Position numbers and translations under genes: made by a program. A stretch of DNA of 34,994 bases from Patescibacteria group bacterium (GTDB lineage Bacteria > Patescibacteriota > Patescibacteriia > 2-12-FULL-60-25): the NCBI GenBank assembly GCA_029004215.1, contig JAQULH010000004.1, positions 1-34,994 on the forward strand, read 5' to 3'. This document shows, one piece after another, positions 28,978 to 31,726 of this stretch; position 1 is the first letter of the stretch; every line of letters starts with the position of its first letter. The notes below the pieces were generated by a model, which ran no database searches, was not told the origin of the DNA, and saw only the letters and a list, made by a program, of their open reading frames with translations.

Positions 28978-29805
28978 TCATTTCTTCTCCCAGGTCAGCC
29001 CGTCAGTTACGACTTTAACCGTCCCTGTAAACCCTGACTTGCGCGCCTCGGCTTCCATGGCGGCAGGCGTGTCAAAACCAATGTAATGGGTCAGCCAAAG
29101 CTCTTTGACTTGCCCGCGATAGGCCAACATGCCGCATTGGCCTGGGCCCATATGGCCATAACCAGCCGTATACTCCTGTCCGATTCTGGTACCACAATCA
29201 GCGATCAATAAATCAGCACGTTCCACATTGGCAAACAGCGACTCAGTTATGCCGGCATCGCCCGTATAGACAACCGTTGTGCCTTTAGTTTCGATCCTAA
29301 AACCTAAGGCAGGATGCTGGCCAAAACCATGGTAAACCCCAAAAGCCTTGAGTTTTAATCCGGGGAGGACTTCTTTTTCCCACCCGCCCCGCATGGGTTG
29401 AAGTTCAAAATTAAACTTTTCTGGGAAGTGGTTTATTTTGTCAGCGGCTTCAGGATGTCGCCACATCCAAGACTGCTTGAACCCGTCGATTGATACTTCG
29501 TGCATGTAAACATCCAGCTTGTCCACGCCATCGATTGGCGGCCCCCAAAGCGCCCGGCAAAGCTTGGCCTGCAGAAAGGTGGCTAAGTCAGCATGGTCAG
29601 GATGTACATGGCTGACTGCGGCACAGCCAACGCGGCCATAATCATAACCAACGTCTTCCAACCTGAACCTGGCGCCTTCACTCACGTCCAGCAGCAGAAG
29701 CTTACCGTCAAAATCAACCAAGAACCCCGGCGGATAGCGACGCGGCCCGGGCAAACACATATTGGCACAAACGCCGGAACCGAGAGTAACAACTTTAAGC
29801 GACAT
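28978..29805 (-). CDS. MBL-fold metallo-hydrolase (RNase Z-like layout)
   Basis: 275 residues of the metallo-beta-lactamase superfamily. It opens with VVTLGSGVCANMC, has LLLLDVSEGARFRLE, then the metal-binding SHVHPDHADL (65-74, HxHxDH). Later ligands appear in AFGVYHGFGQHPALGFRI, VYTGDAGITESL (Asp) and LWLTHYIGFDTP (His). The order is like RNase Z/ElaC and related phosphodiesterases, but the long tRNA-binding exosite arm is not evident, so the substrate is open: tRNA 3' ends, cyclic nucleotides or others. Its extended -10 TGA-TATACT ends 9 nt before the ATG, with no Shine-Dalgarno. Confidence 0.88.
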   Translation of the reverse strand: MSLKVVTLGSGVCANMCLPGPRRYPPGFLVDFDGKLLLLDVSEGARFRLEDVGYDYGRVGCAAVSHVHPDHADLATFLQAKLCRALWGPPIDGVDKLDVYMHEVSIDGFKQSWMWRHPEAADKINHFPEKFNFELQPMRGGWEKEVLPGLKLKAFGVYHGFGQHPALGFRIETKGTTVVYTGDAGITESLFANVERADLLIADCGTRIGQEYTAGYGHMGPGQCGMLAYRGQVKELWLTHYIGFDTPAAMEAEARKSGFTGTVKVVTDGLTWEKK

Positions 29806-29849: not shown

Positions 29850-29878
29850 TTTACAGGCCGAAGAAATCCATTTAAGAT
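29850..29878 (+). promoter_or_regulatory. Promoter of the micro-ORF/ATP-grasp unit
   Basis: TTTACA (29850-29855), 17-bp spacer, TAAGAT (29873-29878). Predicted +1 is 1 nt before the ATG of the micro-ORF, so that ORF would be translated leaderlessly. A separate TTGACA at 29835-29840 has no partner -10. Confidence 0.6.
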
Positions 29879-29885
29879 TTTCTTC

Positions 29886-29960
29886 ATGACGGATCATTCA
29901 CTAAATCAAGCTGCGTTAGCCGTTATTATTACCCTTATTGGAGGTAGAGGCCGTCCGTAA
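29886..29960 (+). CDS. 24-residue micro-ORF, candidate leader peptide of the ATP-grasp gene
   Basis: Reads MTDHSLNQAALAVIITLIGG followed by RGRP and TAA. The middle is hydrophobic and branched-chain rich (LAVIITLI), then a GG pair and a basic end. Its final codons GGC CGT CCG contain GGCCGTCC, which can pair with GGATGGCC at 29983-29990, the 5' side of a terminator hairpin. This is the classic geometry of a ribosome-sensing leader peptide. Alternatively, the GG and the adjacent ATP-grasp gene could mean it is a ribosomally made peptide substrate. Coding is inferred from promoter placement and layout. Confidence 0.4.
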   Translation: MTDHSLNQAALAVIITLIGGRGRP

Positions 29961-30016
29961 TTTTTCTGTCCAGGAAAGTTGAGGATGGCCCCGCCCGACG
30001 CGAGGCCGTTTTTTTT
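29949..30016 (+). promoter_or_regulatory. Putative transcription attenuator before the ATP-grasp gene
   Basis: Terminator: GGCCCCGC pairs with GCGAGGCC (29987-30007, 7 of 8 positions paired, loop CCGAC), followed by G and eight Ts (30009-30016). Antiterminator: GGCCGTCC (29949-29956, in the last codons of the micro-ORF) pairs with GGATGGCC (29983-29990, 8 bp with one G-U), which would dismantle the terminator. The two folds are mutually exclusive. The downstream gene has its own Shine-Dalgarno about 50 nt after the T-run. Confidence 0.5.
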
Positions 30017-30078
30017 CGCCTTTTGGACAACTTACAACTTAATCGGCTTATTGACTCACGGGAAGAAGGAGAATCAAG

Positions 30079-31416
30079 ATGCCTGACATGGAGTACGCGA
30101 TCCGACAACAGACTTACGTGCATGACATGTCGCCCTTCGGTTTTTTGAAGGGCATCACGGGGCTTGCAGCTTATGCCAGCCGAGCGTTGGTCTGCCCTGG
30201 CACGGCGGTTGCCGGATTTGCCAACCAAGAAAGCTGTCACTCTTTGACGGCCAACTTTGATTGGCTACGTCATATCGGAATCGGAGCCGACCACCTGATC
30301 GTTGTGCCGTGCGAAAATCTCCGCTCGGGACTTCTGCAGCCGAACGGCGCGAATTTTCTTCCCCTTATCAGCGAATCGATCAGGAATGGCCGGCCGTTGA
30401 ATTTCTTTCTTTCGCGCAACATGGGCACCCTGGTCAAAGCGCTCGGCCTGACTTGGGATGCGGTAACCACGGCTCAGCCCGAAATCGCAGAGTTCTTCGA
30501 CGACAAGCACTATCTTCGGTGCCTCGGTGCCAAACTTGGGGTGGACAAGGCCTTCCCAGCCTGGGAGTTTGTCTCAAGCAACTTTAAGAACGTCAAAGAC
30601 AGCCGAAAACGGGTATTGGGTTGGGCACGAGACAATCATCTCCCAACCGAACATGTCTTTCTCAAAGCACATGACACGGATGGAGGAGCCGGCCTGCTGC
30701 GCTGGGGTCCAGAAACTCCAGAGAAAGATGTCTCCGAATTTTGCCATCAATACCTGCCGCGCGGTTTAATCGTTGACGCAGGTTATCCGGCAAGCGCTTT
30801 TGAGATGTCCGAATACTCGGTCAAAATTCTCGTGAAAGAAAATGCATGGGATCTCCTCTACTTCTCTCGGCAGATCATCCGCCGCGATGCCCACGCGGGC
30901 AACGAGGTTGCAATCGGAGAGCACGTTTTGCCTTTGGCTTTAGCCGAGCGGGTTCTCGCCTTTCTCAGCCCAATTTGCGACGAGGCCGTAAAGCGCGGCT
31001 ACGGAAGCCACCTCTCCAGGACCATGGGATTTGATTTCATGGTCGTACACGGCAAACAAGGTGAACACGTGCTGATCTTGGAGTGCAACGCCCGCACCAC
31101 GGCTGCAGACTATGCCATGGCCGTTTGCGTCCAGGCAGCACAAAGGTTCAAAGGCCAAGCCGCCGTGGTCATGGAGAATATATCCGTGCCCGCTGCTTGC
31201 CATGATGAACTGCGTGATCACTATTTCCGTGGCCGGCCATGGGACGGGCTGTCACCTGGTTTCCTGATCGGAAATGCCGCCTGCCTCGTCCACGGCAAAG
31301 CGACCATCTTCTGCATTGCCGATAACCTATCCGAAGCCCGCCGGATGCGTGAAAAGCTTATACCAATCAACAGCGATTCGCAGCTCCGTCACTCTACTCA
31401 ACCACCTGCCCCCTAA
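30079..31416 (+). CDS. ATP-grasp-domain protein, possible peptide ligase-type enzyme
   Basis: 445 residues. ATP-grasp features: DDKHYLRCLGAKLG (141-154, opening of the ATP-binding region), HVFLKAHDTDGGAGLLRW (192-209, lysine plus glycine-rich loop), GFDFMV (317-322) and ILECNART (333-340), the Mg-binding E-x-N-x-R. ATP-grasp enzymes join a carboxylate to an amine or thiol through an acyl-phosphate; PGM1-type peptide ligases have a similar ECN.R signature, but the substrate here is unknown. The first ~135 residues are a distinct unassigned domain. Initiation uses AGAAGGAG 7 nt before the ATG, unlike the housekeeping genes. It lies behind the micro-ORF and attenuator, and its stop codon is in the loop of its terminator. 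Confidence 0.8.
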   Translation: MPDMEYAIRQQTYVHDMSPFGFLKGITGLAAYASRALVCPGTAVAGFANQESCHSLTANFDWLRHIGIGADHLIVVPCENLRSGLLQPNGANFLPLISESIRNGRPLNFFLSRNMGTLVKALGLTWDAVTTAQPEIAEFFDDKHYLRCLGAKLGVDKAFPAWEFVSSNFKNVKDSRKRVLGWARDNHLPTEHVFLKAHDTDGGAGLLRWGPETPEKDVSEFCHQYLPRGLIVDAGYPASAFEMSEYSVKILVKENAWDLLYFSRQIIRRDAHAGNEVAIGEHVLPLALAERVLAFLSPICDEAVKRGYGSHLSRTMGFDFMVVHGKQGEHVLILECNARTTAADYAMAVCVQAAQRFKGQAAVVMENISVPAACHDELRDHYFRGRPWDGLSPGFLIGNAACLVHGKATIFCIADNLSEARRMREKLIPINSDSQLRHSTQPPAP

Positions 31417-31477: not shown

Positions 31478-31563
31478 TGGTGCTCGGGAGAGGACTTGAA
31501 CCTCCAAGGGCTTGCGCCCGCTAGCACCTCAAGCTAGTGCGTATACCATTCCGCCACCCGAGC
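31478..31563 (-). tRNA. tRNA-Leu (anticodon GAG)
   Basis: Acceptor stem GCTCGGG/CCCGAGC with discriminator A and an encoded CCA. The anticodon arm is CTAGC-TTGAGGT-GCTAG, giving anticodon GAG, which reads CUC and CUU. A long variable arm GGGC-GCAA-GCCC marks the class II leucine type; the T arm includes GGTTCAAGTCC. 86 nt with CCA. A terminator follows closely. It is divergent from tRNA-Val. Confidence 0.96.
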
Positions 31564-31607
31564 CTATATTTATTTTTGTGCCGTAAGGATACCAATGGAC
31601 TGCTATC

Positions 31608-31636
31608 TTGGCAAGATGGACTGGACAGGTTAACAT
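31608..31636 (+). promoter_or_regulatory. tRNA-Val promoter
   Basis: TTGGCA (31608-31613), 17-bp spacer, TAACAT (31631-31636), 13 nt before the mature tRNA. The -10 equals that of rplA. Confidence 0.7.
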
Positions 31637-31649
31637 GGTTCAGCCTTTT

Positions 31650-31726
31650 GGACGCCTAGCTCAGTTGGTTAGAGCATCTCGTTTACACCGAGAGGGTCGG
31701 GGGTTCAAGTCCCTCGGCGTCCACCA
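31650..31726 (+). tRNA. tRNA-Val (anticodon TAC)
   Basis: Acceptor GGACGCC/GGCGTCC, discriminator A and an encoded CCA (31724-31726). D arm is TAGCTCAGTTGGTTAGAGCA, anticodon arm TCTCG-TTTACAC-CGAGA giving TAC for valine, and T arm loop is GTTCAAGTC. 77 nt. Confidence 0.97.

Follow-up and report, generated by a model that had tools for sequence, protein, structure and literature searches.

A probable ribosome-mediated transcription attenuator with a leaderless leader peptide upstream of an orphan ATP-grasp gene in Patescibacteria

The attenuators of the Enterobacteria (pheA/pheST, ilvGMEDA, thr and trp) combine a leader peptide that has many regulatory codons with mutually exclusive antiterminator and terminator stems, and the leader stop codon lies inside region 2, the 5' strand of the antiterminator. 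These features are shared by an element that we analysed in a 34,994-nt stretch of DNA (hereafter “the window”; contig JAQULH010000004.1 of assembly GCA_029004215.1) from a 1.2-Mb Patescibacteria (Candidate Phyla Radiation, CPR) genome, whose relatives include a Candidatus Uhrbacteria MAG. The element differs from its Enterobacteria counterparts in that the host has no ketol-acid reductoisomerase, in that its target appears to be an orphan ATP-grasp ligase and not a biosynthetic operon, and in that the Patescibacteria leaders lack a Shine-Dalgarno motif and usually start 6-9 nt past the -10 box. It also has no counterpart in Rfam, where no leader-family or T-box covariance model matched the window element up to E 1. 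A precedent for a leaderless leader peptide exists in Sinorhizobium meliloti, in which the trpL (rnTrpL) attenuator transcript begins at the leader ATG (PMC7298713), although that system has Trp codons, a trpE(G) target and an alphaproteobacterial host. Outside the Proteobacteria, actinobacterial leader-peptide elements of Trp, Cys and branched-chain genes have been found by comparison (PMC1262725). They too have leader peptides with codon runs, but their targets are known biosynthesis genes, and their leuA LEU element uses a pseudoknot and a Shine-Dalgarno box. In the one open-access library searched, we found no report on attenuators or leader peptides in CPR bacteria or Patescibacteria.

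The features of the window locus are as follows.

28978-29805, reverse strand: metallo-beta-lactamase-fold gene, a divergent neighbour that marks the synteny
29850-29878, forward strand: sigma-70-type promoter TTTACA-17-TAAGAT; the -10 box ends 7 nt 5' of the leader ATG
29886-29960, forward strand: putative leaderless leader-peptide ORF of 24 codons, MTDHSLNQAALAVIITLIGGRGRP, with stop codon TAA at 29958-29960
29922-29939, forward strand: putative regulatory codons GTT ATT ATT ACC CTT ATT (V I I T L I)
29949-29967, forward strand: region 2, predicted antiterminator 5' strand, GGCCGTCCgTAATTTTTCT, which includes the leader stop codon
29972-29990, forward strand: region 3, predicted antiterminator 3' strand, AGGAAAGTTGaGGATGGCC, the end of which doubles as the terminator 5' arm
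29984-30016, forward strand: predicted intrinsic terminator with a 7+3 bp stem at 29984-30010 (dG -14.5) and eight Ts at 30009-30016
30065-30071, forward strand: Shine-Dalgarno-like GAAGGAG of the ATP-grasp gene
30079-31416, forward strand: ATP-grasp enzyme gene, 445 aa, with a predicted PGM1/BesA-type amino-acid/peptide ligase fold

An earlier note, made from the letters of this DNA alone, had described most of this layout, and we found its promoter, its leaderless ORF running from the ATG at 29886 and lacking a Shine-Dalgarno motif, its terminator ending in eight Ts, and its ATP-grasp gene with AAGGAG before the ATG at 30079. The 8-bp pairing that it proposed was too short: both strands, GGCCGTCC at 29949-29956 and GGATGGCC at 29983-29990, are present, and the antiterminator to which they belong really comprises 18 bp, overlapping the last codons of the ORF, stop codon included. 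Downstream of the ATP-grasp gene, tRNA-Leu(GAG) and tRNA-Val(TAC) genes (31478-31726) separate it from a DAGK-domain gene. This tRNA/DAGK order is kept in relatives, including one genome (G028) in which another gene replaces the ATP-grasp gene.

We consider it very likely that the window element is a ribosome-mediated transcription attenuator, as the earlier note had suggested, a reading for which there are no RNA, reporter or ribosome-profiling data. Comparison of sequences supports the architecture, the conservation of the competing stems, the codon bias and the portability of the module. What is inferred is actual termination and read-through, stalling, the response to starvation, the amino acid that is sensed, and a role of the ligase in helping the cell through a shortage of that amino acid. 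RNA polymerase would initiate at the leader ATG or a few bases 5' of it, and a ribosome would enter the leaderless ORF immediately. If the sensed aminoacyl-tRNA is plentiful, the ribosome would get to the stop codon at 29958 and mask region 2, upon which region 3 would pair with region 4, the terminator would form, and the transcript would end at about 30016. If the tRNA is uncharged, the ribosome would stall 9-16 nt upstream of region 2, on Ile/Leu codons; pairing of regions 2 and 3 would then block the terminator, and the ATP-grasp gene would be transcribed. The spacing is that which such a mechanism needs: every one of five leaders (that of the window and four from related genomes) has Ile codons 9-13 nt 5' of region 2, and the stop codon of the window leader falls inside region 2. 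Counted from antiterminator strand 2, the window leader has Ile codons at -24, -21 and -12 and a Leu CTT codon at -15.

The earlier note had named covariation of the two competing stems and a conserved micro-ORF as checks, and both came out positive: four related genomes retain the leader ORF, the antiterminator and the terminator (L003, L004, L005 and G028, the last catalogued as L111). Orthologues of the enzyme in three related genomes are 42-49% identical to it at the protein level and retain the whole layout, with the leaders MYKFSVKVICLGLIIKDGHS, MNSLTGSKIIVSLGLIINERHS and MKGNSLVNLFSIIGLIIDKRHS; in a further orthologue, L006 (41% identical), no attenuator can be recognised. A covariance model built from four sequences recovered the fifth copy in G028 at the syntenic position (E 1.6e-11). 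There the element, with leader MIFVKSNIIFVMNLFIKRGRL, adjoins a metallo-beta-lactamase-fold gene like the one found also in L003, L004 and L005, and it is placed to control a non-ATP-grasp protein of 242 aa. The presence of the same switch before an unrelated gene suggests that it is a cis-regulatory module.

In the alignment, 97.2% of the antiterminator cells are paired with four sequences and 96.7% with five, against 35-59% when the alignment is slid, and 94.1% of the terminator cells are paired. Three antiterminator pairs are altered on both strands. One of the relatives, L004, has a three-way change (C to U in region 2, G to A in region 3 and C to U in region 4), which turns an antiterminator C-G pair into U-A and also alters the base that pairs with that G in the terminator, so that both stems survive. 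The observed covariation score is attained by 7 to 12 of 500 shuffles; it rests on only five close sequences, and relatedness inflates such counts. The ends of the leader peptides differ (GRP, GHS, RHS, GRL) although the RNA pairing is kept. Alignment A1 contained no stretch conserved enough for scanning.

Which amino acid might be sensed? The earlier note placed the stall somewhere in the LAVIITLI codons, which we narrow to Ile, or to an invariant Leu CTY codon, as the likely regulatory codons. With the five leaders pooled, Ile makes up 17.3% of residues against a background of 6.3% (2.7-fold, p 8e-5); the window leader taken alone is not significantly enriched in Ile (p 0.17), and the five leaders are not enriched in Leu (p 0.27). 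From this codon bias we infer that the window element probably senses Ile, with Leu not excluded. It remains possible, if doubtful, that the attenuator works as proposed and senses Leu instead, through CTY codons read by the adjacent tRNA-Leu(GAG). Each of the five leaders has a CTC or CTT codon at -15 or -16, and the tRNA gene is a conserved neighbour, but the enrichment is in Ile and not in Leu. Moreover, the CTY codon may be kept by RNA structure and not by decoding, since GAGG of region 4 can pair with CCTY. The tRNA gene, for its part, persists in G028 despite the different controlled gene; its adjacency is thus a matter of general synteny, and we do not count it in favour of Leu sensing. 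On the preferred reading of Ile, it matters that ketol-acid reductoisomerase (PF01450), which is needed for Ile/Val synthesis, was found in none of 41 family genomes, as against 14 of 14 control genomes. The switch would therefore not serve as feedback on the standard route of Ile synthesis, and the absence bears out the earlier remark that attenuation would be odd in a genome with little amino-acid biosynthesis.

Among the distant paralogues of the ATP-grasp enzyme, one, split across two contigs, is in the same genome and is preceded by a Phe leader, MLGKSFSFYFFTP, with 1:2, 2:3 and 3:4 pairings. Other homologues are preceded by leaders rich in Phe (MLKNAFVFFFFTPTLG, MLTSVFGFFFFSPA, MRNNSFSFAFFTP, MVVNMFGFCFFTPLLG, MNIKHSSSFFFGFFATLQRVAAV and MQENTKQSYTFFFFFFFPPAGRPC), Tyr (MIFKSRQSVQAAYYYNSSALGLL) or Asn (MILSTKILTFAAGRMDGNNNRLKVLVV). 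Every such leader is backed by its own terminator, and the codon runs in these other genera are FFFF, FFFFFFF, YYY and NNN. Phe accounts for 27% of residues in 11 Phe leaders, compared with a 3.8% background (p 4e-26), and the Phe set has the classical 1:2, 2:3 and 3:4 pairings. Phe leaders such as MLKNAFVFFFFTPTLG are similar in style to E. coli pheL. Across 14 loci, pairing between region 2 and the terminator 5' arm beats shuffles (Fisher p 3.5e-6), with several single loci not significant. The ATG lies 6-9 nt past the -10 box in 16 of 21 leaders and 14-21 nt past it in three more, L076 has no convincing promoter, and a Shine-Dalgarno-like motif was found upstream of none of the 21. Two homologues (L028 and L072) have no recognisable attenuator. 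We set aside the weak ATP-grasp matches L032-L046 and L049-L064, which belong to a different group and mostly lack an upstream terminator. Judged by these comparisons, the window switch is one of several predicted amino-acid-specific ones.

Switches of the same type are also found before other genes. In genome G381, the leader MKRVNEKKYLPLSLSLLLLRWSFVV precedes leuA, with an antiterminator duplex of -14.5 and a terminator of -13.0 (L090, G381:C5, 3340 +). This is, on its predicted structures, the textbook pairing of a sensed amino acid, Leu, with its pathway inside the phylum, and it supports the same reading of the other leaders. Phe attenuators stand directly 5' of small Cys-rich proteins both in the genome of the window and in G032, and in G034 a Phe attenuator heads an operon of a small Cys-rich protein and an ATP-grasp gene. 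In G315, an amidotransferase-like gene lies directly upstream of an ATP-grasp gene that has its own FFFFFFF leader.

We made several side observations at these loci. The Cys-rich targets in the window's genome and in G032 (L104, G000:C45:5060-5161 -, and L103, G032:C8:26026-26120 -) are 67 and 78 aa long and have no Pfam match. The G315 gene, of the class I glutamine-amidotransferase-like kind, is itself preceded by a Phe leader, MNNQTQKFFWNYFFTS (L092, G315:C8, 9208 -); its label comes from resemblance to previously matched proteins and not from a search with this protein itself. On the contig that carries leuA (L090, G381:C5), an Asn-rich leader, NNDNNNGNN, precedes an FAD oxidoreductase resembling L-2-hydroxyglutarate oxidase / malate:quinone oxidoreductase (9403 -), an Ile-rich leader, AIIALIIALV, precedes three small ORFs of which at least two are Cys-rich (2064 +), and a possible Met leader, MTKTLLTNPGLMMMRP, comes with a strong terminator (-18.1) and an antiterminator of -16.6 (L137, 5098 +). 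A strong antiterminator/terminator combination with the leader end QTFAFALCLIVDPEAVHTS stands before a Cys-rich protein at L112 (G002:C3:353675-353808 -).

This variety of leaders bears on whether one amino acid is sensed at all. Attenuators that respond to slowed ribosomes in general are known, a reported case being that of bmrCD in Bacillus subtilis (PMC4191407). The window element could be such a switch, responding for example to a ribosome-targeting antibiotic: the mechanics would be identical, and the residues V, I, T and L are mixed in one stretch of the window leader. We think this quite unlikely, because the homologue leaders carry single-amino-acid runs, each different (FFFF, YYY, NNN), and because a Leu-rich leader precedes leuA in the same phylum.

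Sequence searches say little about the enzyme that the window switch would control. The window protein has no Pfam match, PHROGs and PDB sequence searches gave no placement, and NCBIfam returned only a weak MfnD match (14.9 bits against a cut-off of 400). PGM1_C appeared weakly, below its cut-off, in homologue L031, and a first scan of the genome contigs with the window protein gave no match. The AlphaFold2 model (pLDDT 85) matches BesA (Z 28.9), the Streptomyces ATP-grasp peptide ligase 8YND (Z 28.7) and PGM1 (Z 27.0), while GAR synthetase and PurK rank below (Z 20-23). The likeness to PGM1 (3WVQ/3WVR), BesA (8YI6) and the Streptomyces ligase (8YND/8YNQ) covers the whole-length fold (Z 27-29), but the window enzyme is only 12-17% identical to them, has no Pfam hit and lies in a different genomic setting. 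Our best guess, from the modelled structure, is that it is an amino-acid or peptide ligase. Neighbours of its homologues include amidotransferase-like genes and an M49-like peptidase, and M20 peptidases lie directly 3' in Asn- and Asp-type loci.

Since the best fold matches are peptide ligases, and PGM1 links an amino acid to a ribosomal core peptide, the ORF might be a RiPP precursor with the ATP-grasp enzyme as its ligase, the hairpin only setting the ratio of precursor to enzyme mRNA; graspetide clusters have indeed been reported in CPR bacteria (PMC8939145). This would require a conserved precursor peptide beside the ATP-grasp gene, which our leaders do not provide, as they share no core sequence. 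The peptide ends vary where the RNA pairing is constant, the same leader type precedes genes that encode no ATP-grasp enzyme (the 242-aa protein of G028, Cys-rich proteins, the amidotransferase-like protein and LeuA), and the codon runs vary by paralogue, as sensing predicts. We regard a RiPP precursor as very unlikely and retain the attenuator.

Folded singly, the window element is unremarkable (z -1.09), so the case for attenuation rests on comparison. A composition-blind scan, which required a leaderless promoter, an ORF, a terminator and an antiterminator together, gave 10 hits in 242 kb comprising the window and homologue loci, and three shuffles yielded no hit. Of the 10, nine look genuine, and two unsuspected leaders, one Asn-rich and one Phe-rich, were recovered; because known loci shaped its settings, the scan is not fully independent. 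Scanning 388 kb in other genomes gave five hits. A relaxed scan gave one hit in a 400-kb sample of the window's own genome, against a shuffle level of about 1.7, and we rejected this hit as looking like chance. Such elements are rare elsewhere in that genome, as far as the 400-kb sample goes. That an ORF, a repeat and a terminator merely happen to lie side by side, with which the ordinary single-sequence folding would agree, is already refuted by comparison and can practically be ruled out, as four other genomes conserve the element with compensatory changes and shuffled sequence gave no scan hits.

We tentatively propose, as no more than a possibility, that auxotrophic Patescibacteria have a regulon for amino-acid starvation, made up of attenuators that are leaderless and amino-acid-specific. 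Each ATP-grasp ligase would act on or scavenge the amino acid that its own leader senses, and small Cys-rich proteins, M20 peptidases and a class I glutamine-amidotransferase-like protein would be co-regulated with it. It is speculation that this might be a carrier- or conjugate-based pathway, with a parts list comparable to LysW/LysX/LysK. The usual explanation of attenuation is that it feeds back on the synthesis of an amino acid; in a reduced-genome host without the normal route to that amino acid, its supply must be reported to some other process. Since the amino acid can be read off the leader, the leader would offer a testable clue to the substrate of an enzyme family of unknown function, and the switch would give these unstudied bacteria a readable starvation response.
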